Shown piece after piece: positions 8,644-62,889 of a DNA stretch of 64,000 bases. Where the stretch lies: positions 4,402,001-4,466,000 of the forward strand of contig OZ017746.1 of the NCBI GenBank assembly GCA_963969365.1, given 5' to 3'. The stretch is from Asterochloris sp. CNOR1 (Eukaryota; Chlorophyta; Trebouxiophyceae; Trebouxiales; Trebouxiaceae). Made by a program: the position numbers and the translations under genes. The notes beneath the pieces are model-generated. The model had not been told where the DNA came from. It searched no databases and saw only the letters and a list, made by a program, of their open reading frames with translations. Every line of letters starts with the position of its first letter. Position 1 is the stretch's first letter.

Positions 8644-11600
8644 CTATCCAAATATATGGGAAAAGCCACTGGATTCTGAGAAGCAAGGGCAGGAGGTGTT
8701 AAGTGGCTGATCGGCATGGGCCCAGGTGGCATCAAAGACAGCTTGCAACTTGTCTAATGAAGGGTCAGCAGCGTTTTGCTGCTGCTTAGCTGTGATGAGT
8801 CCCTTCAGGCTCCACCCATTTGAAGGGTGCTCTGCCAGATCCTCCTCATACACTTGTGCTGCTTCTGCCAACTTGCCCTGCTGAAGCAGCACATACCCCA
8901 AGCACTGGCGAACTGGCTGCAACACCCTGGGAGGCTCCTGCATAGGACAGTACATTGTGAGGGGCGTGTGTGCAAGGCCGTGTGGCGAGAAAGGATGAGT
9001 GGCTTATTCGGCATCTACCATGTAGGAACCCAGGTCCTCAATGCTTGCGCCCGTCCTCAGCTCAGCCTGCACAAGGGCAACACACCCGTCAGCCAACAGG
9101 CCAGTGTCACAGCCAACAGGCCGGTGTCACACTTGAGGAGGCAGCCCAGAAAGCAGACACCTCACCTCAGCTGTGGTAAAGTTCTTGCGGGCGAAGGCAA
9201 CGCGAGCCTTGGCCATGTGCACCATGACGCGTGTAAGGTTCTTGTAGTCACAGCCGTAGACGCCTGGCCAGCCACCAGGCACAGCTCCCTGCTCCTTCTC
9301 CATGTCACCCTCAAGTCGCTGCAGTTCAGGAGCCATATCAGCAGTTTGCCATGCACGACAGCTGCAACAACACCCAGCTGCAACAAATGATAGAAGCCTG
9401 CACTGCAACCTTGCCATAGCGCAGTGGCACAGGAGAGCTCTGCTTACCTGCAGCCGCCAGGCGTCTGTGTTGGACATGCTGTAGTAGTTGTCAACCCACT
9501 CTGGGTCGGCGCCATGGCTCACATGGGCGTCCCCCTTGGCAGCAAAGTACATGGCACGTGCAAAATGCCACACTGCCACGCTGTACTGATAGGCAAGCCC
9601 CGGGATGGGGCACATGCCCCTGGCATTCTTGGGGGGGTGGGGCAGCTTGTTCAGGGAAGTCCACTTGGCATGGCGCACTTGCACCAGAGGGAGCATGGCC
9701 CACTCCCTGCAGTGAAAAAGAGTTTCAGTAAACGCGATGATGGGGAACAATTGTCCACTCCCTGCAGTGAATGCCCATGGGAAAAGGGCTTGAAAAGGCC
9801 TTGGTGAGCAGTGTTGCCTGATACGGGTGTGCAATGCACCTCCTACAAGATGGCCATCATGTACGGGGCTTCTGTGCTGCTCAACTGCAGCAGCAGCGCC
9901 TGGGCCACAACAGTCCCTCTTGCCAGCAGTAACAACATATGACCCTCACCTGGAGCCGTCCCCATATGCAGCTGCAGGCATCAGCTCCTGCTCTTGCCTC
10001 AGGATCCTGGCATGGTCCTCAGCCATGAGGACCTGCAATGACGAGAGGGGTGAGGCCCAGAGTGAAGTCTGCTCTCACTTCTGCCAGGCTGGTTGTGACT
10101 GCCCTCAGAACTGGGCTGAGGCCTGAGTTACTGCCCATGAGGGGCATTGGCACCCAGGGTTGACTCAAGCAGGATGGGGGCCATACTCTTGGGGTGCTCA
10201 GGTCTGATGTTTAGTGTTGGGCTGACCAGTCAGGTGACCAGCCAATCTGCTGGTGCCATGACAACAGATATAAACCCTTCTCAGATAATGCTTCAGTGCT
10301 GATGAGCGGAGTTGCCATGCAAACAAGAGCTTGCAGCAGCTGCAGAGCACCCCGCACAGCCAATGTCAGGCAGTGCCAAGACTCACCTCACCAGCCATGC
10401 TTGCAGCATAGACCATCATCTGAGTGTTGTGCTCTGGCGCATATGGGGCGCGGCAGTGCTGGGTGTCGTTCATGTCCGCAACGTACGCGTGGTTGCTGCT
10501 GGAGACAGCATCGTGCCACCTGTAGCATAGGATCAGAAGACATGGTCAGTCAAGCACATCAACAAGCACCAAGATCCTGCAACAGCTGCTTGTGTTGGCA
10601 GAAGCAGCCTGCCTCGGCACAGGGAAACTCTGGACTTGCTGGAGCTGTCCAGCAAACTATTTGAAATCCAAAAAGAGCCACAGGCAAGCCCCTACCACAC
10701 CCAACACAGGAGAGGGTTGGCACCACCAACGCAGCTCAACAGGGAAGCTACTGGACCTTGCAACAGCTGGTGCACTCCACCTGCCCATGCGCACAAAGAG
10801 GTGGCTGGGCATGTGCAGAAGGTGCCCCTGAGCTTGCGGCAGCCGGCGCACTCACCTGCCGATGCGCACATACAGGTGGCTGGGCATGTGCAAAAGGTGC
10901 CCCTGGCTGTGCCAGCGCACTCACCTGCCGATGCGCACAAACAGGTGGCTGGGCATGTGCAGAAGGTGCCCCTGGCTGTGCCACCAGGACCCGGAGGTGA
11001 AGGTCATGTGCTCAGCTGAAGCCTCCGCCCGCGCAGCCGACATCTTGGCATCCCTGCAGGCACCAGAGACAGCAGGTGGCAGGCTTTCCTGCAGAAGCAG
11101 GGTTTTTGGTTGTGTGCAGTTAAAGAGGGCACACAAAGAGTGAGCCCACAGAGGGTTGCCAGATGGGTACGCCCCAACCTGACATACCATACACAGCCAG
11201 GCTGTAGGGCAGGCAGCAAGGCTGGAGACCACGACAAGCTGCCTTCGCCGCTGCTGAATGAGACTGGGTGATTTTCGCTTCAGCCACAGCAAAGTACGGC
11301 GTCTACATATGCCATCCATGTCAGCAAACGCGCTGCGGCTGACCTGAGGGGGCTGCCAGCCTCTGACAGGTGGATGTCCAGGTGCAGGGCCAGGGGCAGC
11401 AGAGGGTCAGCCTCCAGAGCTTCCCGGATGAGGGCGTAGGCCTTGGCGGCCTCGGCCCGCATGGAGCTGTCTGCCTGCAGGTGGTCAGGGGGACCCTTGA
11501 TTTCCAGACCCAAACGCCGTACACAGGGGCCTGCCTGCAGTGGCTCAAGAAGTGCTGAAACCACAAAAATGTGAACTGTAGGCACCTGCCTGTAGGGGTG

Positions 11601-14600
11601 CTGGGACCTGCAGAACAGCTGGGCCAGCCATAGATAAGTCTTCTGGGTGAAGATAGTCAAAGCAGGCCGCATGGAGCTGTGTGCCTGCAGGTGGTCAGGG
11701 GCACGATGAACGCTGCAGGACGTCCAGGCCACACACATGTGCCTGCCTGCAAGTGGCTAAGGGATGACGAACCTGCAGAATAGGTGGACCAGCCCTGAAC
11801 AAAGTCAAACGTGTTCAACTGCAGCCGGTCAAAGCGGGCCATTTGGAGACGCCTGCCTGCAGATGAGCAGGGTGTGCTTCGGCAGACCGCAGACACGCTA
11901 CATCTCAACATCTGCCTGCAGCCTGTCCAGCAAACGCTAGACCCTGCTGTGCATGTGGGCCGTATTTTCTCTGCTTGCCTTGCCCGCCTGCTTTTCTGGC
12001 TGCCTGCCAACCTGCCTGGTCCGCCTGCAAGGAAATGCAGTGTGTTGGCCCCACAATGTGCCCTAGTGCCTCTCCCTGCTGACGATGCCGTTGAAGGTGC
12101 CAGCTGGCTGGGCCTGTGACTCGGCCAGTCAGCCTGCTCGCTCCAGTTAGAGTGATCTTGCTGTCTGACAGCGCAATCTATAAATGCAGGTGCAGCCCGC
12201 CTCAATGTGCCCAGTGCCACCTGCTACACTCATGTTGCCAGAGCTCGCCAAGCTCCTTGTGCCGCCCGTCAGCAGCACTCTCTTAAACCGGGCTCAACAG
12301 CTTCATTGATGCAGGGGCCTCAGGAGCAGCAGCCGACAGCAGCTGGGAGTGCTCAACCTGGCTGAGTACCATTGAGCCTCAATGTACGGCGCTGCAGGTG
12401 ACATAGGTGCTGTCACCCCACCTGACACATTCCCAAGTGTTGCATGCTGGCAGTGCCTCAGCAGCTGAGGGCAGCAGGAAGGAAGCCAGCCATCTCACCA
12501 GGAGGGGAGATACCTCACCTAGCCTCGCTGATGCGCCTCCTGATCACAATACTGCGTTGACAGCCATTGCCAGCATGAAAAACCACTCTGTGTCACAAGA
12601 AGGCATCCATCTCTTGGGCATTGGTGCAGGAGGTCAATCTCCTCCATCTTGTTCAGTGTACTCCCAGTGATGTTGCTCTCTCAGCCTCTGTCAACAGCTG
12701 CTCAGACAGCAATTCCCTGGCAACTCCGTCCACCCCTGCGGTTTATGTACCTGCTGATGCAAGCTGGGAGCCCAACCTCTAAGCCTAAATCCCACAACCT
12801 CAAAGCTGAACACTACAGCTGCTCAGCCTCACCTGGTAGTAATCCCACTGGTGCAGGTTTGTGAGGGCCTCGGCAGCCATAGCCAGCAACTGAGGGTCAC
12901 TGTAGCGGTGGCCAAGATCCTCCAGAGTGACTGCGTAGGCCGCCTCCACAGAATCGCGCAGGGGGCGGGCATGGCTGCCATTCACAAATCGTGCAGCCAT
13001 TGCTCGCAGCAGTGCCAGCTCCTTCTGGGCCAACTGCAGCACAGAGGAGGCCATATGAGACAAGGTGCACAGTGAAAGAGGCAGCTGTGGATGTTCATTG
13101 AGGGCCGATGCGCGACAGGCAAACGGCAGTGCAAGAGCGGTTTGGGGAACTGGACACAGTTGCCACGCACAACAGCTGTGATCTCTGTGTGCTGGCCAGC
13201 AAGTGCAAGTAGCCAGCCCTGCCTGCAGCTTTGCCTCAACACCAGCAGGTGCAGCCATGCCACTAGTAGGACGAGCTGACAGCGTGCGTGACATGCACAG
13301 CCAAACATGCCATGAGATTGGCAGGATGCATTGATGCTGTGACGCGCTTCATATGTCTGGATATCAAGCTGAGCAAGCCATACAAGAGGGCATCAGCGTA
13401 AATATTGGACCCACTCTGCACAGTGTGAAAAGAGGTTGCACCACCTTAAAGGAGTGCTGGAGCATGCGTGCTGCGTCGCTTCGGCTTTTGAATGGCACCT
13501 CTGCTTTGTATGGATGCAGAGGCCGCGTACCTGTGAGTCTGGCTGCTGCTCAGCTGCAGCCCTGGCCCGCTGCAGCCCCTGCTGGGCAAATGCCTGGGCT
13601 GCGGCGTGATCCTCGGGCGCAAACGAAGGGAACGGGACGCGGGTCGGTGTCACATCCCTGCACGCAGCAGGAACAGCAAGCTCTGCGCCTGATGCTGTGC
13701 ATGCTGTGCACAGCTGGGACAGTGTAGGACGCGTGGCGGGGGTCCGCACATGATGCAACAGCCCACTAGCAGGCGCTGGCACAGTCCTGTAGGCAAGCAA
13801 GGCTGAACGCTGGTGCTCCAGTAGCAGTGGCGGCAGTGCTGGACGGAGGACTGACCAGCACCACTGCTGCGCCCAGCTGCCGCTGTTGCAGGAGTTGGTG
13901 TTTGATGCACTGCGGTCCCCCTCAGGCAGCTACTAAAGCTACAGCCATGTCCATCAGGCAGCCTGCAGCAGTCACCTGTTGGCGCCAGGACCCGTGGCAT
14001 AGGCCATGCCAAAGAAGGGCATGGCAGCCTCAGGGTCCTCCTGGAAGGCCAGTTCATGGGCACGCAGCGCCTCAGGTTGGTTGAAGTCAGACTCTAGGAG
14101 CAGGCCCTGCACAAGAACAGCAGCCATGAGCATCCCTCCGTGCGGACGGGGCAGCCTGTGCCCTGACAATGGTGTCAAACAGACGGCAGCCAGTGAGCCT
14201 CGCTGCTGTGTATTTGGCAGGAGCAGCGCCCAGCCTGACGCTGGTCACGCGCTCAGCTCCAAGTCAGTAGGCTTGGCAGCAGCGGCTCGTTGCTTGCCCG
14301 TACAGGGGGTGCATATGGTGGCACCACAGCACAGGCTTCACTGCCCGTGATGCTGCGGAGCACTGCTTATGACAAAGCCTTGCTCCAGGTCGCTGGTCAA
14401 GAGAATCTGCCCCACACTATTTGGAGGCCCCTCTCCCAGCAACTTCAACAGGCACCCTAGCACATCTGGTCACGATCTCTGCTCAGACTCCAATGCAGGG
14501 CTGCCCCATCCCATCACTGCAACATGTCAATTGCTGCACTGCAGGCTAGCATGCACCAGACGGTTGCAGCGCAGCCACATCAATGATAGATGTCACTTGC

Positions 14601-15670: not shown

Positions 15671-15928
15671 TATGGTGCGTGTCGGCCTAACCAACAACGA
15701 TGAGGGGGCAGAGGCCTAAGTTGGTCAAGGCCCTAGTTCCTTGACCAAGTTACAGAGGCACTCCAGCTTTGTAACTCTTCTTTGTAACTCTTCTACCCGC
15801 TTGAATGCAATTTCTGCAAGCAAGGTGTTGTGAGCAACGACCTCGCAATCCTACATGTGACTGCTAAACGCAACTAGAGGATCTTCGTCAGGACCATTGA
15901 AAGTGGTCTCTGACTGAGGCACTGCTGA
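15671..15928. promoter_or_regulatory. Bidirectional promoter, TPR gene / FANCE
   Basis: 258 bp separate the two divergent start codons. The region holds a perfect 10-bp inverted repeat, ttggtcaagg (15721-15730) with ccttgaccaa (15739-15748), and two abutting copies of a 13-mer, tttgtaactcttc (15768-15780 and 15781-15793). These are the obvious candidate binding sites. No TATA box is evident. Promoter function is inferred from gene layout. Confidence 0.6.
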
Positions 15929-18141
15929 ATGGCTGCGTACATTCATGTCCTTCTTAAGGTGGGAACTCATTGTACACCCCTATCAGCCATTTTACTATGG
16001 ATCTTGCCTGCACAGTTGACTTGGCTGCTGCAGGGCAGGCAGTTCACACAGCACACAGAATGGCTGACCTTTCTGCAGCAGCTGAGGCAGCAGCCTGGCA
16101 TCTTCGGCAGCCTGTCGCCGCTGCACCAGCTGCTCATCTTGGCACAGATCCGGCTGGCATGCACAAGGCAGCTGACAGCAGAGCAGGTGCCTCTGGGCCT
16201 TCTCAGACAGCAGAGTCATGCTGTCATCGCGGAGGCTGTGAGCGAGCTGCTCAGGTATATTCTGATTTGTCCTCTATGCACTGTCTGGAACCAGCACAAG
16301 TCTGCATGGCCGTTGCTTGCAGGTGGGCTATTTGCTGCTCCACATGCCGCGATGCTTTCGTAGTGTACTGCAGGCCTTTGGAGAAGCAGGTGACTTTGCA
16401 GACGGCGCAGCAGCCTCAGCATCAGCCACAGGCTGGACACCTGGCAGGCTTTTATCCCAGCAGACGGACCTCTCACAGATCTCACAGTCCGTCAGGCAGG
16501 GCACAGCCAGCGCAGTCAGCCCGGCAGGCAGTCCCTGGCCCAGGTCTGGCGGAGGATGTCCCTGCAGCAGATCATGACCCTGCTGACCCAGCCTGCAAGC
16601 GCATGCGATGGTCCCCACTCGGTCTGCAGCATATGGCTGTCCAGCCTGCTGGCGGCCAGGTGCAGCAGGAGCCGGAGCACTCAGCGCAGCACTTGCTGGG
16701 AGGGACAGCAGAGGAGCAGGCAGGGCCAGCTGTGCTCAGCCCTGAGGTACAGGCGGCAGGGGACACTGTGCAGCAATACCTGTCCAGTGCAGAGCAGGTG
16801 GGGATGCGTCTGTGAGTGGCCACGATGCCTACCAACCTGCGACATCAAACCCAGACGTTCCAGGCGTGTTGCCACATCAATAACCACACTTGTCATGCGT
16901 CCTCGCACAGGTCAGGTTGTAAGGTGTGCCTGAAGAGCTCTGCACCCCGGTGCATGTTCTCCCTGCCCCAGCAAGCCATCCTGTCTGCGCAGGATGACCC
17001 CACGCAGGGCTTCACAGCTCGGGCCCAGGCGGCGCTGGTCCGCTGCCTCACCGCGGCGCAGGAGGCTCAAGCCCACGGGGCGGTCCTCACCGCAGCGCTG
17101 GGCCCTGCATGGCGCCAGCCGGGGCAGGCTGTGCGCCTGTGCCTGGAGCTGCTGCCAGGGGGCGGGCCGGAGGAGGGGCTGCGGTGGGGCCTGAAAGCGC
17201 TGCTGCTGCCTGCCTGCCAGGCTGTGCAGGCGGCCCCCTGCAGGACGCTGATGGAGGGCCTCAAAGCCGCAGGTGGGGGGCCTGACCTGTCAAGGTGTGC
17301 AGACTGTGAAGAAGGGCCCAGAGGTCGCAGGTGGGGGGCTCAACCATCAGGCTGTGCAGGCGTGCCCCTGCAAGGCAAATGCAGGTGAGGAGCTGGCCTG
17401 AATGAGTCGAGCTCGATCCAGGAACAGATGGAAAGTCTTGCAGCTGCAAATGACCCGCAGACCCAAGGGAATAGGCGCTCGCTTAGACAACAGCCCCGCT
17501 CTCTGCAGCCCACTGCAGCACATCAGTGACGATACCATACATTTACTCTTCAGGGATGAAGCATGGAGATGCGGTGGCAGAGGCTGTGGTGGCCCCTCTG
17601 CTGCGGCAGTCAGCGCCCACAGCCGGGCAGGTGCAGCTGCTGGTGCACGCACTGAGGGACACCTTCCCCCTGGACAGCCTGCCCTGCCTGCTGACAGCAG
17701 CGGCTCAGGTGACCTGCTGGGACGAGGGTCACGTTGCAGTCCTGCAAGCCGTGCTGGGCCGACAGCCAGTGCTGTGCGAGGTGGGCCAGGGCATGACAGC
17801 AGCAGGGGTGTTAAGATGCATTACATCCACAAACAGAGATGAAGGTGCTGTTTTGTCAAGTCTGCTGCAACCTAAATGGAAACATCTGCAGTCTGCCAGA
17901 TGTCCCTTGTGCTCTGTCGCTACAGGAGCATCTCATTAGCGGCGTGATCAGGGGCATTGGAATAGCAGTGGAGGGTGGCCTCCAAAAATCAAGCAAGCTG
18001 ATGCAGCTGTTGAATGTGCTGGTGGCTCAGTATGGCCAGCAACTTGACCAACAGCAGCTGCAAGGCGTGCACCATGCTGCCACCTGCAGCAGCAGCTTCA
18101 TGGGCAAAGCTGTGCTCAGAACTGTGGCAAAGCTGCAGTAG
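15929..18141 (+). CDS. FANCE: Fanconi anaemia group E protein (FANCE), 5 exons, ~514 aa
   Basis: Exons 15929-16254, 16323-16797, 16972-17272, 17554-17780, 17926-18141, all in phase. FANCE links FANCC to FANCD2 in the nuclear Fanconi core complex that monoubiquitinates FANCD2-FANCI at DNA crosslinks. The call rests on the C-terminal helical domain: LVHALRDTFPLDSLPCLL, CWDEGHVAVLQAVLGRQPV, and the family's typical ending of a KLMQLLNVLVAQYG helix followed by SSFMGKAVLRTVAKL and stop. Exon 1 is a helical N-terminus (TEWLTFLQQL...), and exon 2 is a Gln/Pro/Ala-rich linker with a short basic patch (CKRMRW). A possible 75-bp in-frame intron (15959-16033) inside exon 1 has good splice sites and no stop, so the N-terminus is ambiguous. 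Intron 3 repeats the exon 3 end. Confidence 0.75.
17219..17395 (+). repeat. Echo of FANCE exon 3 end in intron 3
   Basis: The exon 3 end 'gccgcag|gtggggggcctg' (17266-17284) recurs as 'gtcgcag gtggggggctca' (17324-17343), and 'ggctgtgcaggcggcccc' (17220) recurs as 'ggctgtgcaggcgtgccc' (17350). Both echoes carry potential GT donors. Confidence 0.7.
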
Positions 18142-19300: not shown

Positions 19301-19559
19301 GTGCTAGCGGATGCCTGTTGAGCTGATGCTGGTGGCCCAAGCGGCTGCTCTGCCATCTGAGGAGAGTGACTTTGCAGCCCTGTGTAAAGGCAAAAGATCA
19401 TCTGCCTGCGCATGTACGACCTGTCGCCTGGGAACCACTGGGGGGCTCGCCCAGAAGCATGGCTGGATCTTACCCCAGAGCTGCTTCTGTGCAAACAGGA
19501 CTCATGCCATGGGCAGCTGATCTGCCTGGCCAACCGCGACACCTTGTCCAGCTGCAGGT

Positions 19560-20988: not shown

Positions 20989-21113
20989 GCTAGCCTGCTT
21001 ACTATGGAGTGACATTGAAAAGCTCTAAGTAGGTACCCAATCCTACAAAAGCTCATTAATGTTTCATGAGGAACTCCAAATTTTTAAATTTTCTCTCGCA
21101 TATATCTTCAAGT

Positions 21114-30300: not shown

Positions 30301-30431
30301 GAGCCCTCTCCGTCGGGCACAGGGTTGTTCTCCTGGGCCCGCGCCACCAGCTCGCTGGTGTCGGCTGTGCTGGTGTAGCTGTCGGGAGAGGAGCGGGGCA
30401 TGACAAAGAATATGAGGGCCACCAGGAGCAC
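24357..30431 (-). CDS. Apyrase / GDA1-CD39 nucleoside phosphatase (5' end unresolved)
   Basis: Exons in reading order: 30431-30189, 28969-28865, 28169-28022, 27573-27357, 26722-26629, 26275-26150, 25133-25040, 24790-24675, 24539-24357; phases agree and give 441 residues. The family hydrolyses nucleoside tri- and diphosphates, usually in the Golgi lumen or outside the cell. All apyrase conserved regions are present: ACR1 [20 protein letters not shown]2 [15 protein letters not shown]3 [18 protein letters not shown]4 [15 protein letters not shown], then [33 protein letters not shown] and C-terminal [12 protein letters not shown]. The first exon found opens with a hydrophobic stretch ([10 protein letters not shown]), a likely signal anchor. 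It begins in phase 0, so at least one upstream exon with the start codon is missing from the model. Three copies of the anchor-exon start lie upstream, which obscures the 5' end. Confidence 0.88.
25821..25980. repeat. ~95-bp tandem duplication in an apyrase intron
   Basis: Two copies of 'gccagctgcaggctgtgacaggg...cctcagt..gtctgg' start near 25821 and 25915, moderately diverged. Another weaker pair is at about 25370 and 25460 ('ttcagcagatg'). Confidence 0.6.
26350..26375 (-). repeat. Echo of apyrase exon 6 acceptor
   Basis: The acceptor and first codons of exon 6 (gtgcag|ggcatcttt, minus strand near 26275) are repeated about 88 bp upstream as gtgcagggcatctgt, followed by a GTGAGT donor-like string. 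Confidence 0.55.
29963..30110 (-). repeat. Echoes of apyrase ACR1-exon end
   Basis: The real exon end (ctgcagagcgacacctttgagcag|gtgcc at 30189-30212) is echoed at 29963-29992 (ctgcagagcgacaccttttatcag|gtgcg) and, more weakly, at about 30083-30110. Both lie downstream, in the intron. Confidence 0.65.
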
Positions 30432-30499: not shown

Positions 30500-30650
30500 G
30501 CTGGACCATAAACACCAGGACGACCTGCAGGCACTGCACAGGTGTTGAGGGATGGCCTCATTGAACTACGTCTATAGCTACACTTCTGGGTCTTTGGGCA
30601 TGCTAAAGAACATGGGAAGAGCGTGAGAGCCACCAGCAGGACCTGCACAG
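30500..30650 (-). repeat. Two upstream echoes of the apyrase anchor exon start
   Basis: The exon start GCAG|GTGCTCCTGGTGGCC (30434-30420) is repeated upstream at about 30528-30505 (gcaggtcgtcctggtgttt) and 30645-30598 (gcaggtcctgctggtggctctcac...). All three have acceptor-like CTGCAG or TGCAG and encode a short hydrophobic peptide of the form V(V/L)LV. Confidence 0.7.
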
Positions 30651-49606: not shown

Positions 49607-52600
49607 TCACAGGGGCTGCGGGCGGGTCTGAACAATGAAGAGCTGCTCGCTGTCCAGCGCTCCCTCCACGTCCTGGGGGCAGCCAAACTCCTTCTCCAGG
49701 AGCTTGCCGGCCTCACACAGGCGCACACCCAGCTGCAGCACCAGGAAATGTGCTCAGATGCCATCAGCCACAGCAAGCCGCTGCTGGCTCAGCATGCAGG
49801 GGGTGGGTAGTGGCATGCATTGGGACACACTCTGCTGCAGGGGTTGGGTAGCGGCATGCACTGGAACACACTCAGCTGCAGGGGGTGGGTAGCGGCATGC
49901 ACTGCAACACACTCATCTGCAGGGGAAGGGCACGCATCACGGCACAGGGAGCACAGCAATGAGTCCAGTCAGCACACACCAGGCACAGCACCAGGCACCA
50001 GTCCCCCTGGCAGCCTGGCGCATCCAGTGTCAGCAGAGGAAGACAAGCCAGTCACCCAAGGACGTGCCTTGCCGCAGAGGGTGCTCTTAGTGGCCCTCGT
50101 GCCACACGAGCAGCCCCTGGGGTCCGCACAAGGCAGATCGCACATGCTGGAGTGGCTATATACACAACAGAGAACAGGGCTGCTGATGCATTGCTGGTCG
50201 CCACCGCAATGTGAAACTCGCAAAGGGTGCCTGACACTTGAAAAGTGCTGGCATACGCACACTGCATTGCGGACCCTGCCATACAAGACGTGCAATCACC
50301 TGACTACGGGCATGCTCGCTCTGGGAGAGGGCTTGGCGGCTGTAGTCAATCACTGTACTGTCCGCTCCAGACTTGCCAGTGGTGCCCTGAAGGGCCCGGC
50401 TGAAGTTGGCAAACGCCAGCACATCCACTTTGCCTGCAGGGCAGCCACCAACACAGTCTGAGCACTTAGCACGGCAACAGCTAAGAAAGCTGCAGCTTGG
50501 CAGCTGATGGGCTCAGGGTCACACTGAATGGGCTGTGCACCTGATTACCCGTGCCTCGCAAATACAGCCGCTTCACAAACACAGCTATCTAAGCACAAGT
50601 CCGTAAAGGTGCCCACAGTGCAGCCAAGCACACCAACTGGACTCAGCATCACAGGCGGCGCTTTCATGCCTGTCCGCAGACAGGCGCCAGGATGGCCACC
50701 TGGACTGATTGCTCTGCTGTCAGCACACCCTTTGAAGCAGGCCTCAGCCCGCAAAATGTATGCTTGATAACAGCAGGCACATAGCAGGCAAATTTTGGCA
50801 AGGTAATGAGGGTACAGTGCATCAGCACTTCAAGCGGACCTGCCTGCGTGTTAGCTGAGAGGCGGCAGCAGAGGGCACCAGGGCTATCGGCTTTCTTGCT
50901 CTCTGCACCAAATTATGCAGCAACCAGGCTGCACATGTTTGTTGCAATACCAGGCATACCAAATGCACCTCCCCTGCTGGGGCTGAGAGCACTCCCCAAG
51001 GCTGCCCTGCCTGCAATCCAGCCCTTTGGCTGTTGGAGGCAGCGAGCGCTCCACGCCGGCCGCCACATCCTTCACATCACATCCCCTTTGGCGAGGCACA
51101 CAGCATGGCAACATGGCCACGACGATGCCTGACAGGTGGCAAACACTACTGTGCCAGCTTCTCCATCGAGAAGCGCCTGGGAAGGTCCCCTGAGCTGTCT
51201 GCTGTTCTGAGTTCAGCACCTTGTCAGCGCACGTCTGCCCAGGAACACCAGCCACACAGCAGGCAAAACCTACATGCCGAGGCGTCAAGAGCACAGCTGT
51301 ACTGCAGTGAATGTGCACCTGTCTGCTTGTCCACCGAGAAGCGCCAGGGGGACCCGCGGGTGCCTGAGGCCAAGGTCTCCCCCAGGCCAGCTGCCACCTC
51401 AGCCGTGAGGGTGCCCGAGTCCCCGCCCAGGGCGCTGGCGGTGTGCAGCACAAAGCTGACCTGGGGGGCAACCTGCTCCTGGACGAGGACGGCCATGCTG
51501 GCATCTGCCTGGCTCACTCCTGCAGTGGGGTGCAGCAGTGGGTGCTCACATAGCTGCGTGGGAGGGAGGCCCCTCTCCCTGTGGGTGCATGGCAGTGAGT
51601 AAAGGCGTCACTGTGCAGGGAGGCAGGGACCTTCTCCAGTGCTTCCCACCAATAAAATTACAGTAGTGAGTGACAGCATAGCTGCACAGGGAGGCATAGC
51701 ACTTTCCACAGGCTTTGCAGCATTGCAAAGCGTTGAGAGCAAAGCCCAGCAAGGGCAGACTTACAGCACCTGGCAGCCGTCCTTGTGCTGCAATCAGCAG
51801 CTGGTCAAGGCATGCCCTTTACCCATAGTTCTGGCCCAGCAAACCCACAGCAGCCCAGTGGGTGCAACTCCCTTTGCCAGCCGCGCTGCAACAAACAACA
51901 GCATTTGGCCCAACAGCCTGGGTGTGACATCAGGCACCATCTGCTGGAGAGACGTAGCTTCAAGTCATCATTGGCAGCAACTCATCACCACCTCCCCCAG
52001 GTGGCTGCAGCTCTGTACCACCTCTTTTTGGACTTTTTTACCTTGGCACCTCCTTGGTACCCTCTCAGCGCCTTGACCTGCTTGCAGAGCGCCATCTGAG
52101 CGTCATCTCCCCTAGATGAGCAACCTTTTATCACCTCGTCCTGCACCCACATCGCCATCCAAACATCTCGCCACCATCACAGCACCTCACCCTGCCACCA
52201 GTGCATTGGCTCAGCATCTTCTTTCTTCACCAGATGGTGCAACACTTAGACACTGAAGTATCGCACCTGCAGCCCGCCGGCTCAGCACCGCCCGCCGCGT
52301 GAACAGGGAGGCCCATACTTGGGCCACCGCTGTGCCCAGGGCTTTTGTGTCCCCTGCCGGGATGTTGGGGATTGAGTCGTACAGGCCAGCCCCCGACATG
52401 CCGGCGATATCCTCCACATTGGCACTGCTGCGGACAATGACTGTCTTCCCACCCAGAGCCTTGCCTGTAAGAACATGTGGTGTTAACTTGCCCTTTGACA
52501 TTGATGCTGTGGCGCCTGCCTTTCTGAGCGCCTTGCCTGCAGGAAGCTGGAATGTCGAGCTGCAACTACTGTGAGTGCTGCAACTGCTGTTTGGCCATGG

Positions 52601-53515
52601 CAACAGCATTTGCTCTGCTGCAGCATTCAGCACTCCCTCTGCAGGCTGCAGCCGTGAATTCACACATGTCGCAGCCAGCGCACTGACCTGCGTCCCATGA
52701 GCTAGTTGAGCGCCTGCTGCAGCGCTGCAGTGCAGCTGCTGCCCAGCCTATCGACAGCAGCAATACCATGCAGATTGCTTGCATCTCTAGGAAGGCATCT
52801 GCGAGGGTGAAGCCATACGCCATGCGTGTTGCAGGCAACCCCTAAATTGTAACTTCAGCTGGCTGCTTGCACTCTGCACCACCAGAAGTGCTGTACATTT
52901 GCAGGCAATAGAGTATCACTGACCAGAGAGCGTCCCTGTTGCTGACCTGCATCTTTCAGTAGGCCGGCCGCAGGCCGCAGCTGCGACACCAGCTCCTGCA
53001 GCTGGTTGCAGGCCTTGTTCAGTGCACTGCCCTCAAGCTGTGCGGTCTCCACCTCGCTCAGCAGCGCCTCAAAGTCCTCTGCCTTGCCAGCAGCCTGCAA
53101 AAAAGGCAAATGTTGGTGGGGACGGCTGACGGGAATCTAGCAGTCTGCACCTAAAAAAAGGTTGGAGCATTGCAAGCTGGGACTTGAGAGCAGGCTGTGC
53201 CCGAGTTGACAGGTCGGGGTTATGAGCAAGCTGAACTGGAGAGCGGCGTCCGTTAGGGTTTAGGGTTTGGAAGCAACACTCTGGCAGGCGCTGCTTCACC
53301 TACCACTGCAACTGCAGCCCAGGTGTCAAGCACACAATGAAGCTGACCTGGAGAGCAGCGTCCATGGTTCCAAAGGGCAGCACCACTCCGGCAGGGGCAG
53401 AAAACTTCCTGCCGCTGGCCTCTGCCAGGCGAGCGAGCTCTGCACAGGCGGCGGCCTTAGCCCCAGACGTGCTGGCCTTGGCCTCCGCCAGCTTCAGCAG
53501 CTTGGGTTTCTTTGC
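49607..53515 (-). other. PWD: C-terminal ATP-binding (PPDK-type) domain (exons 19-24)
   Basis: Exons 53515-53348, 53094-52947, 52464-52267, 51519-51319, 50433-50300, 49732-49607. [20 protein letters not shown] leads to [19 protein letters not shown], then [81 protein letters not shown] and VQTRPQPL before TGA. No exon is needed between 52947 and 52464: the direct join keeps the family length. Confidence 0.92.
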
Positions 53516-56500
53516 CTGCGCGGTGTACAAGCAGACTGGCTTCACACAAATGTCCAGGTGGCGACGTCCTGTTCTGCATGTCGGACGCTATGCTCAGCTG
53601 AGCCAGCGCTGACAAGACATATGGCAATGAAGCGACATGCTATATGATATCTGAGAAACGTAAACATTCAGGTGGCTATCTGCAGGTGCTTGCGATGAGT
53701 TGTAGCCAAGAGTGTGCCAAAGGCAGCAACAGACATCTGCCCGATGGACTCAAAGGCTGCTCTCCCTGTCTTGGCGACTGCAGCACTTGCTGACTTCCGC
53801 CTGGTCGCAAACAGGGAATTCAACCGTCCCAGGCACAGCCCACCTGGTGGCAACACTGTCATCTACCTCAGACATGTGTCTGCTCCCAGGTGTTGCCAGA
53901 ACAAAGCCTAGGCACAGCTCACCTAATCAATGGCAGCCAGGATGGCATCCATTGTGTTGTCAAGTGGGAAGCGACATGCCGACCTTACTGGTCCCAATGG
54001 CATCCAGGGGGACATCTCTATTGTAGAGTAGAGCTGCAAGCACACCTCACCTTCTCACAGGGCTCTAGGGTGGCATTCGGTGAGTCTGCAGCCGCCGCCT
54101 TGGAGGTGCCGCCTGCAGATGGTGCGTTGCCTGTCTGGGCATTGGCAGGACCGCAGGTCACCCCTTCCAAGCTGGCTGACAGCTGCACCGGTTTGCCTGC
54201 AGGTGGTGGCACGCTGATGCTCAGCTTGGTCCCCACACTGTGGCTGGTGTAGGCTAGCAAAAGAACCTCAAAGCAGCCAAGGTGACCGAGCTGCTGCAGG
54301 AAAGAATGCAACCCATCGCACATGTGGAGGACCATTTGCTGCCTGTTGCGCAGCACATGCACAGCCTCGTGTAAAACATGCTCACAGGCGCTCTCTTTGG
54401 CCCAGGTCTTTCATTGACCTACTGACAAGCTTCAGAGCCGCTGAAGGCCCGCCTCAGCAATCTTCTCTGCTATGACACACCAGCAAGCCCACCCTGCCGC
54501 CAGCCCCGATAAGCAGCATGCATAGCTCCTCACAACCATCTCCTTTGTGCTCATCCGCAATGTCTCAACACCAAGCAAACTTGACGCCAGCACCAAGCAC
54601 CGCCCCAGTCTCACCCAGCAGGGGGTGCACCTCCTCACGCAGGGTGTCCTCATCCTCGCAGCACACAAACACCACCTTCTCCTGACGAGCCCGCACACCT
54701 GCAGCACAACATGAGAGTGAGCAGCGCTGAAGGTGACTCAAGACGTGGCTAGCAACACCTGTTGTTTGTCTAGGCGCTTCAGGTGGGGCAGCGAGTACGT
54801 CCACAATCACCCCACCCAGCAATATGAAGGACAACACAGGGCAGAACATGCCTGCCACATGAAGCCACAGCCACATGTTGCAGGTGGGGCAGCAAAGGGC
54901 ACCAGGAGGGCCCCATCGGCAGGAGGCAGGCCAGGCCAGTGCTGCCAAACTCACCTAGGTGGCTCAGGTGGGGCAGCGAGTGCGCCAGGATCACTCCGCG
55001 CAGGCGCAGCCCTGTGGCCCCCACCTCCTCGTCCCCGCTGGCCTCCTTCACCAGCAGCACCACATCCTCATCGGGAGCGGCCCCCTCGAGTGCACCGGGC
55101 TGGATGCGGTCCACCTGGTGCAGGGTGCCAGTGGCAGTGCCTGCAGGCCAGACAGAAACAGGTATCTGTGACAGCACAGGCACAATGCGCTGCACCTGAT
55201 GTTGTATTGTATTGGCACTGTCTGCATGCGGGCACGGCACAGGGGGTGAGATGCGGCCGTGGCGGCCTGATGCAGAACTCCCTAGTGCATGACACCCTTA
55301 GCATTTGCTTGCCAGTAAGGCCCATGCCACCCTTGTCGCCATGCATGACTGGGAAGGGCCCAGAGGAAAAGCGCACGCCTGCTCACAAGCAGCCAGGACA
55401 TCTGAGAGGTCTCGCAAGAGCCCTGTGCTGCTGGGCGCAGGTTGGCTTGCTGCTAACAAGCCTGGACGAACATCCTGCAGGCAGTGCCTGCCACACAGGC
55501 AAGTCATATTAGCCATGCCATGATGCTATAGAGACGTTCGACGTGCAGCACAGATAGCAGCTGACCTGCTACCAGAGCATCCCAGGCACCGCCCCCCGTG
55601 GTCAGCCGTGTGGCCTTCAGCAGCAGGCTGCACAGCTTGCTCAGCTGAAACACCACGCTTGCTCGCACCTCCGACTCTGTGAATACCTGCAGGGTAATAC
55701 CGCAGCTGGTGACAAGGAGCTATGGCAAAGCATCCAGGAGCTGATCAGTGTGTAGGCGTACAAGCCTGTGAATCCTGACCTGCTGAATGCAACTTACTGT
55801 TGTCACTTGCCTTCCTTCAGGGCCATGCCCCTGAGTTAGCATGAACCTAGGATCCCACCTGAATGCACTCCTGATGGCCTGTCAGTCCATCCCCATGGTG
55901 GTTTGGCAAAAGTGGCTTTGGAGAGACATTGGACATCAAGACCCCACCTGAATGCGTTCCTGTTGAATGCCCAGGCCCCGGCCCAGTGCGTTGACGCACT
56001 CAGGGAAGACGCCCAGCAACAGTTCCGTGTAGGCATGAGTCATGCGCTGCACACGCTCCAGGCTAGCCTTCAGTCTGCAGGCAGAGTGGGCTCTGAGGAA
56101 GCTGCCTCTGCAGCAAGGTTGGCCATGCAGGAGCTCCGCAATGCAGGCGCTTAGAGATGGCCTGCAGCTTGCAACTGGCAGCAACAGTGCAAATGAAGGC
56201 ATTGTTCGCAGGGTACTGGCAGTGTGATGGGCAGACATAAGGCTGGTCTTCTGCCTGTAAGAAGGGAGTCGCAGTGACCCAGGCCGCTGCAGGCTGTGCT
56301 TCAGCCTGTAGTGAGGTGTGCCCTGCTGCAAGGTGGCGCTGCTACCAGCACAGCAATGTGACACAGTTGGCCGGGGTGGCAAGCAGTGTCGACTTGCTGG
56401 TGACAGGCAAAGGAAGCTGCTGCCAATATGTGATGGCCCACAGGGCACAAATGCCAGCTTCTGGTGTTCCACAGTCTCTATTGACAAACACACGGGATAT

Positions 56501-59500
56501 TGCCGCCTGCAGGGTTGGCATGCATCACAGCAAGCTCCAGAACTCATATGTGGTAAACAGTGGCCCACGTAGGCACCAGAGCTTGGGCTGCTTGCAATGC
56601 CGGCTTCTGAACATCCCAGATCCAGACCCACCTAAGGATGTGCGTCTTGCTGGCAGCTTGTCAGCCTTTGTCATGCCTGACCTTGGCAAGTGCATCAACG
56701 AATTTAGGCTGCTCCTCTGCAGTGTCTGCTCTCTTCCCACCCAAACCCAGGACCCACCTGAGAGCGTGCTCCTTGCCACCAAGCTGCAGGACTCCTGCAG
56801 GGCTCTGATGGCAACTGAACAGCAAAGTGTGCATTGCCCCTTGCTCCTCTGGGCATCAACAACACAGCCAGGCTTGCAGTACTCCTGCACCAGCACGCAG
56901 TGCTCCTGCACCTCATCTGGACTGTAGCTTAGGCTGTTGACACACTTGACCCAGGACCCACCTGAGGGCATGCTCCTTGCTGGCAAAGTTGCCAGCCTGC
57001 TGCCAGGCTGTCAGCTCGTTCTCCACAGCCGTGCACTCTGCCGGCTCCCAGCCGCTCATGCCCATGTGGCGGATGCCCAGCACAGCAGCCCCAATTGGCT
57101 GGGCCCACCCTGCATCTGTGGCCCCTGCCAGCCCCTCTGCGCCGCCCTGCAAGCACAAAATGCAACTGCACACTACAGTCTGCAGGGGGCTCTATGTGGT
57201 TGGGGTGAGTGGCGCCTGTCTGCCCTGCTGCGGCTGTGCACACAAGAAACAAACGGTCTGAGAACCTTATCTAGGGACAATTAATTGCATTTTTGCGTGT
57301 TTATATCCCAGGCATGCCTTGGCTGACTGACAGTTGTACTGGCCAGATTTGCAAGGAAGGACTGCTGTGCATGTACATGTTCTGCGGCTGGGGCAAACAG
57401 CAGCTGCCTGTGGCACACAAGCTGGCCTCCTGACATCTCTGCCTCATGCACCAACAGCATGGCCTCTTGCTGCGCTCCAGAGATTGTGAGCACGATTGCT
57501 GACGCGTGATCATCCTCAAAGCAACCTGGCAGCAGGTAAGCGTCATTCCAGTGCCGTTGGCAGCAGGCAGGGACCATTCAGGTATGCAAGGGGCAGTACA
57601 GGTCTGCAGCACCCTCCTTTGTCATGCCAAAACGAAGCATACAGCTCAGGACGTCCTGCTGTTTTGTTGGTTGATTTACATGCATGAGCAACCCACCTGC
57701 CCATCAATGATGTTCTGCATTTGAGACAGCAGCACAAATGCATAGTCCTCCGCCCGGATCTCTGCCAGGCGGAAGCGCTGTCGCATGGCCAGGGCGTTGT
57801 CAGGGGCGTCATTTCGCAGCCCTGCAGCAAGTCAGTGGAGGTTGTGAAGGCACTACAGAGACGAGCAGTGGGGCACATGCTGCCTGGCCCCAAGCCAGCA
57901 GCTGCTGGTCGGGGCAACTGCTCTCCTTGCGGCACCCCACAAGTGTGCACCGCATGGCATGAGCACAAGTATCTGCAGCAGCTCCTTTCCAAGGCCAGCA
58001 AATAGAAGCCTAACAACTTTGCAGGTTGGTGCGGCTCCACTGCATGGGCAGATGTCCACAGCTGACAAAAGCAGGCAACGTTTTGCCTGCACAAACATAA
58101 AGGCTGCCCAGTACAAAGCACAAGTGGGTGGCCTGGTACACTCACCGCTGGACAGCTTGGCCCCCAGCACCGCCCTCACAGTGGTCAGCTGGTGCAGCGC
58201 CTCCATCACGTCATTCATGCTTGCACTTGAGGAGTCCAGGCGGGCCTTAGCGCCCGCAAAGCGGTCCAGCACCTGCACAGAAGGTGCCAATGTCAACTTG
58301 AAGAGCAGCTGACTTGTGGAACGTTGTGGCCTGGGTGCACCCTGTCACCTGCAAAGATGGTCAGGACTTGCAGCCAAGACGTTAGTGATACAGATCGAGG
58401 TGCGCAGCGTGGTCCACCACAAGCGCTAGCAGCATCAGGCAGGCTGGGAGAATGCTAGCGCTCTGTCTCAACCAGGCGCCATGCTGCTAGCATATCCCGG
58501 GCAGTGTCAGATGATGTCCAAACTTGGGTTGACTGGCTGCGCAGGCTGCTGATTCCCGCTCACCTGGGCGTCAGGGTCGTCCAGGGCCGGCTTGATGCCT
58601 GCTAGCATGTCGGCAAAGGAGCTGGCATTGAAGAAATCCCTCAGCTCCTGGGTGAACACCTTGAACTCCTGTACATAGCAGTCTGAAGCTTTGCCTTACG
58701 GTCGCACAGAGTGGGTAAAGCACAGCAGGACTCCCCAGACAGACATGACAGGCAGGTCGCAACAGCATCCTGGCCAGATAGGCGGGTCACAGCAGGACCT
58801 TTAATAGACAAGAAGGCAGAACTGGCAGCCCACAGAAAGGACTTATGCCAGACAGGTGAAATAGGCTGGTCAGTAGACTCTTTGCCGGGCAGTTGCATAA
58901 CATGTAGACCTAGTGCAAAGGCACATGGGGGACGTGACAAGTGTTCAGCGCTTGTCCAGACTGGCTGACAGGACACACGCGCTTACCTGCACAAATGCCT
59001 GACTGTAGTCTGTCCCGGGCGCAGTGATGCGTTGCAGCATGGCCTCGGTGGCCACTAGATCCTCTGGCCCAGCATTGCGGTGCAGCTTGTTCTGCAGGCA
59101 GGGCACAGCATGTCATGCCAAGCCAGAGTGGTGCAGGCAGGGCAAAGGATGGACTTGCAGGAGGAAGCTGGCCACCAAGGCCCATGTTGTTTGTTCAGCA
59201 GCAGGCCCGGGGGGGGGGGGGGGGGGGGGGGGGGTTCTTGCAGGAGACAGAGGGTGTTGCAAAGTGACATTGAGATCAGCAAAAGAGGCCGTTATGCAGG
59301 CTTCCTGCAGCATGCTCTGCAGACGGTACTACCCTTTGTGTTTATGTTGAGAGCTTTACAAATGCCAAGGGAGCTGATGACAGCTTGCTTCTGACCCCCG
59401 TCGGGTATCACAGGGCACACACAAGGTGCTGACTCAGACCTTGAGTTTGCCGCCCAGCAAGGTCCAGAGGAAGCTGAGCCACAGACATCTGGCAAAGCGA

Positions 59501-61601
59501 TGCCATTCCTGCTGCTCTGTGGACTCTAGAGAGAGCTGCACATGGCAGCCTGTGCAGGCTGTCGATTGGAATCTACACTGAGCCTGCTGCCCTGCATCGA
59601 GAGAAGCATGTGAGAGGCCTCCCCACCTGGATGGTGTGTTTGATCTCCTTCTTGATGTCGTGGGGTATGTCGTTGCGATGCGCGATGTCGCGAATGCGCG
59701 TCAGGGGCTCCTTGGCCTGGAATTTGTCTGTGAAGCTGGGCAGCCTGCAGAGGGGCAGGGCAGCTGCAGACCCATACCAGTGATGCATCATAAAATGAAG
59801 CTGGGCGACTTGTTGGAGGGGGCCAGGAGAGCCCAGGTCTACAGGTGTGACATCTTGGGCCTTGTGTTAGAGGCAGGGCAGCTGGATTGGGGGCCACGGC
59901 CGCCTGAGCCTGCAGAAGGGGGATCCAGCAGGAGCAGCAGCCTGTGGCACGTAACAACAGGTGCCAGCCTGCAGCAGCACCATGAAGGACGGACAACGGT
60001 GTGAGTGTACGTTCAAAGTGACATGAGAATGTAGTTTCAGATCCAGATGATGTGTGCAGCACGATTTGTGTGATAGCAGTCGCCTGACTGGACACAGCGG
60101 CAAAGATTGCAAACTGCAGCCTGGACGAGCGCAGAGAAGAGGGGAGGGCATTGCTTGGGACGGCCTGCGGCGGTGTTACGTGGCGATACGCATGACAATG
60201 AGCAGCCTTGTCGCACAGCAACCACCAGCATGAAGCTCCACCTGAAGCTGAGCCCACAGAAGAAAGAGATAAACCCTGTGCGCTCCCCTGTCTAGCAGCT
60301 TGCCTGGCTACAGGCTGTTCTCTGTCAGTCTCCAAAAGCAGGCAGCTACAAGCATGCACTGCCAAGTCACTGACTCACTTGGTCTGCAGCTTACGCGCCA
60401 CCAGGAGAGCCTCACGCTCGCTGTTTGGGTCGCCGATGACCCACTCTAGAGACCGGAAGATGACAGCTGCCTGCTCCGCGTGGTGGTTGGGCCTGAAGTG
60501 GCCCCCACCCTCTACGCAGGGGATGGCGCCTGTGTTGATCCACTGCAGCAGACTGGCAGCCATGTTTGACACAGGGTGCAATGACTTTGCAGAATGCACT
60601 GCACGTGGATGCTCCTGAGAGGTGTGCAGCCTCGTTACGCGAAATGGCCTGAGAATCTTGATGCTCACGAATTTGACCAATGCTGAAGGCTCACACCAGC
60701 ATCAAGCTGTGTATCAAGCACACCTTGGCCTGCCCTGCTTCAGCAAGTCAAGTACAGCACAACCCTGGCACCAGCAGGCGGCGCATGACCATCAAACACA
60801 TGAGTCTTAGTTTGGGCTGAGCACCTGGAGGTAGATGTAGGCATTGGCCAACGCGTCCAGCTGGGGCCTCTTATTGGGGGCGTCGTCAACAAGCAGCTGC
60901 TTCACATGCTTCATCTTGCCCAACCAGCTGCAGGCAGGGCACAGCAAGGTGAGTTTAGTGACTAGCAGCGGACTGGGAGCGGCTTTTGCTGCTGTGTGAC
61001 AACAGGAGGACCTGTACAGCATCTTGGCCAGCTAGCTGGAAGCAGGGCAGCAGCTTGTCAGGAAGTGATAGACCACTGCAGATTCATGGCCCCTGCTGTC
61101 CCCATAACGCGAGGAGGACAATGCAGACAGAATTTGATCATGCAAGCGCTGGACTGGCCAGCAGCGGACTGAAGGCAGTACGAGGTTATAGCCCGTGTTG
61201 CTGCACCAGGGGTTGGGTGCTGTGGCGTGAACCAGGCCAGTTGGAGGCATGGCAGCTATTCTTGAAGACTTGCTGCGTACCAGGATTCCAGAGCGAGCTC
61301 AGATGCCTCCGCAAAACCCCATGATCCATGGTGCATGAGCATGTCAGAAGTGCATTCACCTCAGCAGTTGACCTGCAAATCAGCGCTGGATGCCCATCTC
61401 TTGTCCCCTCAACTCACCTGCCATCCTTCTGGTCCCCCTGCACCAGCGCAAGGGCAGCTCCCTTCAGCCCCTCGGTGCTCCATTGCCCCTGGCGATCGCG
61501 CTGGTGGTCATTTCCCTGCATCCACCTGGTCTCCTGCCCCTGCCACTGCTGGTGGGGTAGCCTGTCGCCGTCTCCGCCGGCTGTGTGAAGTGGCGGGGGC
61601 G

Positions 61602-61639
<38 letters not shown>

Positions 61640-62889
61640 TCCTGCAATAGATGAGCTGATCATGGAGCATGGCCAGCCAATTTGATGTGCAGGCAGCAGG
61701 GCAGGGCCTCCTGCTGCTGTACTGCCCCTGCAGCAGAGCTGGTGCTGAGGGGTAGTGTGATTGCTCACCGAGGGGCAGGCCGGACACGTCACGGTGTGTC
61801 AGTGAGCATGGACAGAGGCTGATGGCTGAGTGGCAGCATTGTCAGTCTTTGCTGCTGTGCCTTGGCGTAGCGCTCGGCCATGCAGAGGCTCCTCATCAGC
61901 ACCGACACAAAGGTTGCACATCGCACCTGACCCTGCTCCTGTGGGGGACTGGCGCTGCCGCTACTAAGGCTGGGTGTCTTTCCATTCTGTGTGACCTCAA
62001 ACTGTAGCTGGTCCGTGCCCCAGTCAAAGCCGACCACTGCAGCTCTGGTGCCGTCTGGGACCTGCAGAGAAAGTTTGGTGCTGAGTGCTAGATGTGACAC
62101 AGGCATCTTCCATCCAAATGATTACGTGCAGCCAGTGCACGCTGGAGACGTCCCAGGCAACATCTAGGGGCACTACAGGAATTGATAGACTGCTGCAGGC
62201 AGTGTCTGCAGCAAATCTGATGGCTTAAGCAGACTGGACACTGTGAAGCAGACCTGCAAGCCCTCTGGGTTGCATGCCAGCGCACTGCCTCACCTTGATG
62301 TGGTGGTTGTTGCCCTGCTCCCACTCCACGCCGTGCTCAGTCACCTTGACGCACTGCGGGCACCAGAAGCCCATTGCCGCGCAGAATGGCCAGGGACAAC
62401 AGCACCTTGCCAAAACATGTCATGAGTAGCTCTTGCTGGTGTGCAGCCAGCTTGTTGATTAAGAGAGTGTATGTCGGCAGCTGACCACCTTGAATTCCAC
62501 TTCTGCGCCCACGGGCAGCTGGATGTCCACTGTCCACACATTGCCATCGCTCCAGTTCATGGCAGGGGCACTGCCCACATCCCAGTTGCCCAGGGCAGGA
62601 TGCCCCCCCACCAGCTTATGGGTCTCCCCAAAGCCCACCTGCCGCTTGGTAGAGACTTGCAGGGTGGCATCGCCTGCAACACACTGCATTGGCCGATGGG
62701 AAGGAGTCAGCTTGCAGCCAGATGTGCCCATGGGAGCTGATTGCCAATTTGCACTACCTGCAGAGCTGAGCGCCCTCTGGCTCTGCAGGCCTGCTGGCTG
62801 AAGAGAGTTGGGGGCAGCCCTCCAAATCTCTTGGGAAGCCGGCTAGGATTGAGCTTGTAATGCGCTGAGCCTGCGTTGGGAAGCTGCAT
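49607..62889 (-). CDS. PWD: Phosphoglucan, water dikinase (PWD/GWD3), 24 exons, ~1137 aa
   Basis: All 24 exons join in phase (coordinates in the four segment entries). PWD transfers the beta-phosphate of ATP to the C3 of glucosyl residues in starch already phosphorylated by GWD, releasing AMP and phosphate. This opens the granule surface for degradation in the chloroplast. The order matches the family: transit-like N-terminus, CBM20 starch-binding domain, long central region ([29 protein letters not shown]), catalytic histidine segment [19 protein letters not shown] with His735, and C-terminal nucleotide-binding domain ([45 protein letters not shown] stop). Length is close to Arabidopsis PWD (about 1200). 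LSHLGVRARQ and the CBM20 distinguish it from GWD1. A CAG tract in exon 5 adds a polyglutamine run. Confidence 0.93.
53228..53268. repeat. Echo of PWD exon 19 end, joined to a telomere-like motif
   Basis: ctggagagcggcgtcc (53235-53250) echoes the exon 19 end ctggagagcagcgtcc (53349-53364). Directly beside it is TTAGGGTTTAGGGTTT (53253-53268), two units of the plant-type telomere repeat, read as AAACCCTAAACCCTAA on the gene strand. Confidence 0.65.
54051..55686 (-). other. PWD: catalytic-histidine segment (exons 15-18)
   Basis: Exons 55686-55566 ([20 protein letters not shown]), 55140-54955 ([28 protein letters not shown]), 54698-54615 ([17 protein letters not shown]), 54196-54051. His735 in SHLGVRARQ is the phosphohistidine that carries the phosphate between ATP and glucan. 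It falls at the very end of exon 16, and the same exon end is echoed twice in the following intron. Confidence 0.9.
54774..54905 (-). repeat. Echoes of PWD exon 16 (catalytic-His) end
   Basis: The exon end gtgatcctggcg...ctcgctgccccacctgagccacctag (54955-55010) is echoed at 54774-54823 (gtgattgtggac...ctcgctgccccacctgaagcgcctag) and, shorter, at 54882-54905. The echoes lie in the downstream intron. Confidence 0.75.
55850..55880 (-). repeat. Echo of PWD exon 14 end
   Basis: The donor region of exon 14 (cgcattcag|gtgggg, near 55948) is repeated about 90 bp downstream as tgcattcag gtggga. Confidence 0.6.
56620..56783 (-). repeat. Two echoes of PWD exon 13 end
   Basis: The exon end gccagcaaggagcatgccctcag|gtgggtcctggg (56950-56984) recurs in the downstream intron at 56748-56780 (gcaaggagcacgctctcag gtgggtcctggg) and 56622-56655 (gccagcaagacgcacatccttag gtgggtctgg). 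Both retain the GTGGGT donor. Confidence 0.78.
59209..59234. repeat. Poly-G run of 26 nt in PWD intron 8
   Basis: An uninterrupted run of 26 G on the plus strand (C in the PWD transcript), preceded by ccc. It can form a G-quadruplex on the plus strand, and the exact length should be treated as uncertain. Confidence 0.85.
61604..61638 (-). repeat. CAG tract coding for polyglutamine in PWD exon 5
   Basis: GAGGAG followed by eleven CAG codons at the very start of exon 5, right after the acceptor. Being CAG-rich beside a splice acceptor, it may vary in length and offers extra AG acceptors three bases apart. Confidence 0.8.
61927..62889 (-). other. PWD: transit-like N-terminus and CBM20 starch-binding domain (exons 1-4)
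   Basis: Exons 62889-62758, 62683-62489, 62353-62294, 62061-61927. The first 44 residues are rich in basic, Ala and Ser residues with few acids, as in a plastid transit peptide. The CBM20 follows: [20 protein letters not shown], then [19 protein letters not shown] and [11 protein letters not shown], including the tryptophans that stack on glucan. The exon 2 acceptor at 62684 was chosen because only it keeps phase with exon 1. Confidence 0.88.

Follow-up and report, generated by a model that had tools for sequence, protein, structure and literature searches.

Why should introns hold degenerate copies of the exon ends that lie beside them? The question is raised by a stretch of 64,000 nucleotides from the green alga Asterochloris sp. 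CNOR1 (GenBank assembly GCA_963969365.1, contig OZ017746.1, positions 4,402,001 to 4,466,000 of the forward strand; hereafter the window), for which an original prediction held that introns throughout carry local copies, or echoes, of the adjacent exon boundary. Here we show that the echoes are real, in a second, independent stretch of 200 kb from the same genome as well as in the window, and that for roughly one sampled splice site in ten the adjoining intron holds a decayed copy of the site and of some of its exon. As to their origin, we lean towards small head-to-tail duplications across exon-intron boundaries, retained only where the outer copy came to lie within the intron.

The window (C1:4402001-4466000) belongs to a 56.4-Mb genome of 21 contigs and has a G+C fraction of 0.55-0.62 per 2-kb segment; Asterochloris glomerata is described in PMC6652019 as having 56 Mb, 56-62% G+C and 9 introns per gene. 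The independent stretch was C2:1.0-1.2 Mb. Genes were predicted with our own two-strand hidden Markov model, whose training ignored echoes and began with 40 WD40 and helicase seeds; it recovered 37 of the 40 and returned 57 genes with 682 introns (median length 243 bp, 1st percentile 70 bp), with a splice consensus of CAG/GTGAGC at donors and (C)TGCAG/G at acceptors. Acceptors of the 682 predicted introns were unusually strict (T 0.93, G 0.95 and C 0.98 preceding AG, with C at 0.63 before those), a strictness that is partly a product of the gene finder's self-training. From 739 predicted exons 489 were kept (coding score >8, length at least 45), with longer limits and contig margins then applied per test. 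One locus (L009) overlaps another (L031); it was counted in the exon filtering, in the test of 452 and 442 edges and in the length test of 123 echoes, and was removed from later tests.

Local direct similarity greatly exceeded its controls. Ungapped direct high-scoring segment pairs (HSPs; score at least 16, lag between copies 12-400 bp) numbered 64, whereas a single block-wise dinucleotide shuffle yielded 3 and an equally large set of lags at 10-10.8 kb yielded 1; inverted local matches exceeded block shuffles and far lags less than direct matches did. The copies were strongly directional. With 30-bp windows, a score of at least 14 and a search of 300 bp, 32 of 452 acceptor edges had an upstream copy (1.5 expected from other loci) and 4 a downstream one (1.3 expected), and the reverse held at donors, where 20 of 442 had a downstream copy (0.5 expected) and 2 an upstream one (0.8 expected). 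Exon middles, searched with 25-bp windows at the same score, gave one upstream and one downstream copy among 413.

Many of the local direct matches contain CTGCAG or CAGGTG. A motif-free test was restricted to the first or last 30 coding bases of 381 internal exons, in a single search space at a score of at least 13. Exon starts recurred 27 times in the upstream intron and 4 times downstream, exon ends 31 times downstream and once upstream. The exons' own introns, when shuffled, gave only 0-3 per cell, introns of other loci 1.7-3.7 expected, and exon middles 3 upstream and 6 downstream; the predicted copies thus survive comparison both with shuffled introns and with exon sequence away from the boundary, and their direction is the one that boundary-crossing duplication predicts. 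Upstream and downstream counts were 7 and 0 on the acceptor side, 0 and 9 on the donor side and 1 and 1 in the middle for the window taken by itself (64 exons), and 16 and 3, 1 and 17, and 2 and 4, respectively, for C2:1.0-1.2 Mb (273 exons). Orientation was overwhelmingly direct, with 59 direct copies at 421 exons (score at least 14, both edges and sides summed) against 4 inverted ones, the latter count standing without a chance control.

A depth profile of 869 edges (25-bp windows, score at least 13, excess over other loci) placed the signal at the boundary itself, at 7.3% at -12, 5.1% at 0, 4.0% at +12, 2.8% at +20 and 2.0% at +30, falling to about 1% past +40, compared with 1.2-1.6% deeper in the intron (-150 to -35); the peak was confined to about -25..+45 of the splice edge. 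Overall, 99 of 849 edges (0.117) had an echo at a score of at least 13 and a lag of 60-350 bp, and these form the echo set used below. In the window 25 of 153 edges passed, so that echoes are present there, although the claim that they occur throughout its introns was too strong.

A small tandem duplication across the boundary should leave, close by and in the same orientation, a second copy of the splice edge flanked by exon and intron sequence, and such copies are seen here. We suggest that duplications of about 80-300 bp would cross such boundaries head to tail. Where an acceptor is duplicated, splicing to the downstream copy would yield the mRNA as before, with the upstream copy turned into intron; a duplicated donor would be the mirror case, and in either the intron would be lengthened and the protein unchanged. 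Since only mRNA-restoring arrangements would survive, echoes are to be expected upstream of an acceptor or downstream of a donor, with almost none from exon middles. The exonic copy would be kept by protein selection as the intronic copy decays, and exon-anchored pairs would therefore stay recognisable after intron-only duplicates had faded.

For 69 of the 99 echoes, the predicted intron that holds the copy is the one bordering the parent edge. The median length of these introns, 446 bp as opposed to 243 bp for all predicted introns, agrees with the earlier suggestion that small duplications enlarge introns, with the caveat that long introns give echoes more room. Mismatch rates in echoes were 0.38, 0.375 and 0.42 by codon position, with no strong third-position pattern, and lags fell into the three remainders modulo three as 31, 37 and 31, with no bias to multiples of three; these even mismatches and frameless lags indicate that echoes evolve like non-coding DNA. 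Of 38 donor echoes, 19 retain GT, where flank identity predicts 0.50; of 61 acceptor echoes, 37 retain AG (0.61 compared with 0.47 expected, part of the gain being due to a search window that included AG). Dinucleotides kept no better or slightly better than expected, at lags free of frame bias, give no support at the level of sequence to the further proposal that echoes form a reserve of alternative splice sites.

The spacing of the copies is uneven. Among 151 echoes with lags of 31-600 bp, 14 lay below 80 bp, 102 at 80-300 bp and 35 beyond; the permutation for this set gave 6 hits with one of the two windows used, and the ratio of 151 to 6 is consequently overstated. In a wider count of HSPs, boundary pairs per 10-bp bin numbered 5, 4 and 6 at 50-80 bp compared with 17, 18 and 19 at 80-110 bp, and intron-intron pairs 14, 13 and 10 compared with 13, 16 and 10. 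Boundary echoes stood at 11 and 33 in the two ranges and intron-intron pairs at 37 and 39 (Fisher p 0.012, post hoc). The residual intron (length minus lag) was shorter than 75 bp in 5 of 82 cases, whereas uniform lags would give 17; it looks as though duplicates had joined introns that were workable already. Both patterns were noticed first and then tested on the same data. Very short boundary duplications would seemingly be lost, presumably since two close splice sites compete.

Regarding age, the process had been thought ongoing, a view that the scores do not support. The fractions of the 99 echoes reaching scores of at least 14, 16, 18, 20 and 24 were 0.76, 0.48, 0.26, 0.10 and 0.03, the last being 3 echoes at 24 or more of 30. 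Constant-rate simulations gave 0.90-0.92, 0.74-0.77, 0.60-0.66, 0.48-0.51 and 0.29-0.38 at the same cut-offs, whereas a simulated process that had fallen silent ~0.2 substitutions per site ago gave 0.79, 0.45, 0.32, 0.11 and 0.00. The likeness to the silent process, together with the scarcity of near-identical copies, suggests that most visible echoes are old. An old episode can also explain the peak at the edge, as intron-only pairs, with both copies drifting, would largely have been lost and exon-anchored ones remain.

Several observations weigh against tandem duplication over the whole lag. For their lag the matches are short, with medians over 82 echoes of 40 bp into the exon and 12 bp into the intron, and their length is independent of it (Spearman 0.007, n=123, one locus counted twice). 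In favour of tandem duplication, at lags below 200 bp flank similarity in the correct register beyond the core reached t 2.1-2.3 in 5 of the 14 tests of the two lag classes concerned, with t 3.3 at exon +35..+75 and t 3.1 at intron -110..-60; beyond 200 bp no flank similarity was clear bar one test (t 2.0). An other-locus null had given flank z values of 3.4-7.0, above the significance under this stricter wrong-register null. Similarity over the whole lag is true of a few cases, such as the array at 10772-10983; otherwise it is weak below 200 bp and at longer lags all but missing. A search at twice the lag found copies in 3 of 78 cases (score at least 12), compared with 2 and 1 at 1.5 and 1.7 times the lag, and regular arrays at doubled lag were rejected for lack of an excess, although single edges do show doubled lags (68 and 136 bp, or 96 and 192 bp). 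The simulated score gain at exon +35..+75 was mostly 4-19 (0.9-3.9 only with frequent indels), compared with 0.6-1.9 observed; the edge excess over the intron interior was 3.4-fold, compared with about 2-fold in the steady-state simulation; and simulated echo frequencies of 0.011-0.061 never reached the observed 0.117. A simple steady-state process of tandem duplication was rejected, the score distribution and the flanks having the wrong shape.

These same short matches and weak flanks, with almost none beyond 200 bp, keep alive a rival that we consider unlikely, namely short local copying, in which patches of ~30-60 bp around the splice site are placed in the intron and no lag-length duplication occurs. 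The lack of relation between match length and lag and the narrow peak of the depth profile fit such patches, as does the fact that 10 of 12 near-identical HSPs (identity at least 0.9, length at least 22, lag >50) span less than 70% of their lag. Patch copying should, however, also hit exon middles and the introns on both sides of an exon, neither of which is seen in the motif-free test, and by templated insertion it would yield inverted copies too, of which there were 4 to 59 direct ones (with no chance control for the inverted class). Local templated copying with inversions was rejected on this scarcity, subject to the same limit.

A second alternative, which we regard as distinctly improbable, is that echoes are former working splice sites, the duplication having split the intron by way of a mini-exon or a two-step removal, with the copied site later silent or still in use. 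The rise in spacing at 80 bp and a residual intron whose lower bound lies close to the length of the smallest introns (70 bp at the 1st percentile) would agree with this, and short exons called by the gene finder on a few echoes (43756-43782, 56758-56783 and 10856-10879) suggest that single echoes may be used; yet the splice dinucleotides are kept like their flanks (AG slightly better), there is no frame signal, and both bounds have simpler readings. If the two-step reading were true, echo-bearing introns would be two introns fused around a mini-exon since lost, and the spectrum of spacings would reflect spliceosome size limits, with a smallest workable intron of ~70-80 bp. The bolder form, that boundary duplication is a main route of intron growth in the lineage via a stage in which the copied edge itself is spliced, is offered as speculation of low probability.

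That echoes are alternative or mutually exclusive exons under selection is very unlikely: some were indeed called as short exons, but mismatches are near equal over codon positions, lags are frameless and GT is missing from many donor echoes. Chance, composition or shared splice motifs can hardly be the cause at the level of the sample, for although the very strict acceptor TGCAG/G raises the scores of windows that hold it, the signal persists in motif-free coding windows and is absent from shuffled introns and other loci. The splice motif was likewise discarded as a driver: TGCAGG decoys within introns did not act as parents, upstream copies on the motif-free side occurring at 0.012-0.023, compared with 0.016 at random intron sites, and they do resemble downstream sequence, as echoes should. 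Copies of a dispersed element, an introner or transposon, are as good as excluded: introners are known from a green alga, but echoes match their own locus only, the two echo regions tested (RMT2 and PWD) having one place each in 56 Mb and other-locus controls being flat.

The tandem duplication that we favour is clearest in a three-copy array of 69 bp at 10772..10983 (reverse strand), which takes in the donor edge of exon 10925-11053 at lags of 69 and 144 bp and is the clearest full-length, young case. Its unit equals 23 codons, and one copy was called as a 24-bp exon (10856-10879) that would repeat SHLYVRIG in frame, making the array a young natural test of splice choice. HSPs were found at all the places named beforehand. 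The acceptor edge (11474) of the exon at 11344..11474, exon 8 of the supposed TPR gene on the reverse strand, has three echoes, at 11663..11704 (lag 210, 42 bp at 0.905 identity; HSP and edge test), 11740..11763 (lag 272, 24 bp at 0.79) and 11835..11872 (lag 382, 38 bp at 0.74; HSP list). On the forward strand, the FANCE-region donor edge and its echo occupy 17244..17339 (17244-17281 to 17302-17339, lag 58), known from the HSP list alone as the exon fell under the length filter of the edge tests. The RMT2-region exon at 22605..22775 (forward) has acceptor echoes at 22452..22473 (lag 140) and 22167..22227 (lag 408, 61 bp at 0.705; HSP list), and the donor edge of exon 23185-23337 has one at 23341..23392 (lag 45). 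The apyrase anchor exon at 30189..30431 (reverse), whose protein matches GDA1_CD39, has echoes of its acceptor edge at 30617..30650 (lag 211) and of its donor edge at 29940..29992 (lag 220, 53 bp at 0.755).

In the cyclase gene (forward), the acceptor edge of exon 43985..44170 recurs at 43747..43809 (lag 229, 63 bp at 0.78), where the short exon 43756-43782 was called, and the donor edge of exon 47829-48072 at 48136..48199 (lag 109). The PWD gene (reverse) holds donor echoes of exon 56962..57146 at 56745..56776 (lag 204, 32 bp at 0.94, with the short exon 56758-56783 called there) and 56622..56655 (lag 330; HSP list), and of exon 55948-56074 at 55849..55876 (lag 89). GT is lost in the donor echoes of exons 54955-55140 (54770..54799, lag 185), 53348-53515 (53228..53251, lag 112) and 51319-51519 (51152..51181, lag 168); the acceptor edge of exon 60825-60927 recurs at 61020..61049 (lag 108).

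Across many exons the proteins predicted from the window match the Pfam families GDA1_CD39 (2e-80), Guanylate_cyc, HATPase_c, HisKA, Response_reg and Bac_rhodopsin, as well as PPDK_N, GWD1_pHisD and CBM_20. The names apyrase, opsin-kinase-cyclase and PWD-like are upheld by these matches, in contrast to TPR, for which the Pfam search returned no family, and to FANCE and RMT2, which the gene finder fused into one model whose Pfam matches were ankyrin and DUF4379 only, with no FANCE or methyltransferase match. A predicted 41-exon gene at 32285-48887 joins Bac_rhodopsin, HisKA, HATPase_c, Response_reg and Guanylate_cyc domains. A zinc-ribbon (DUF4379-like) segment at 20000-20400 has at least 40 further genomic matches at 78-85% identity, most of those listed lying on contig C12 and others on C1, C17, C11 and C4. 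Among eight zinc-ribbon paralogues in which insertions were polarised, none of four inserts was a local copy above the shuffle limit, and a paralogue search in the sample found only window repeats at 1.5-5.5 kb and 6.6-6.9 kb. Separate from the echoes and repeat-like are a direct repeat of ~1.8 kb, 72% identical (1471-3237 and 3694-5491), and a repeat cluster in both orientations at 6486-6951, which includes a 268-bp inverted self-match. At 59209-59234 there are 26 consecutive G.

The closest known likeness is the potato RdRp gene, where, as reported in PMC4974935, a tandem duplication over an intron 3' end and exon start carried the acceptor along, as proposed for the echoes; there a new intron was gained, whereas each echo is an extra copy within one longer intron, at about a tenth of the splice sites sampled. 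Intron gain of the Rogers type, in which AGGT undergoes tandem genomic duplication (reviewed in PMC3443670; for Drosophila, PMC2891723; also PMC2809761), shares with the echoes small local tandem duplications and splicing selection as these sources present it. Its hallmark, a donor edge like the acceptor edge of the same intron, is absent (score 12 was reached in 0 of 339 introns, 1.1 expected); with same-intron edges no more alike than chance, intron birth by AGGT duplication was rejected, and the original proposal that echoes may create new introns finds no backing. The ubiquitous internal gene duplications of Gao and Lynch (2009), as cited in PMC3443670, PMC4974935 and PMC2809761, likewise lie inside genes and carry introns and boundaries along. 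Introners, as portrayed in PMC9860276, also add to intron content, but they are dispersed and echoes private to their locus. A limited literature search, in the portions of the sources available, found no genome-scale count of directional copies of splice edges in introns.

For annotation, the echoes carry a warning, as the gene finder puts spurious short exons on some of them. Each echo can be read as a local fossil whose parent, direction, spacing and age are recorded, and intron growth, usually inferred from length comparison, becomes countable within one genome. The strict directionality would show splicing filtering duplications, and with the sequence of a relative to hand the episode could be dated from the scarcity of young copies.

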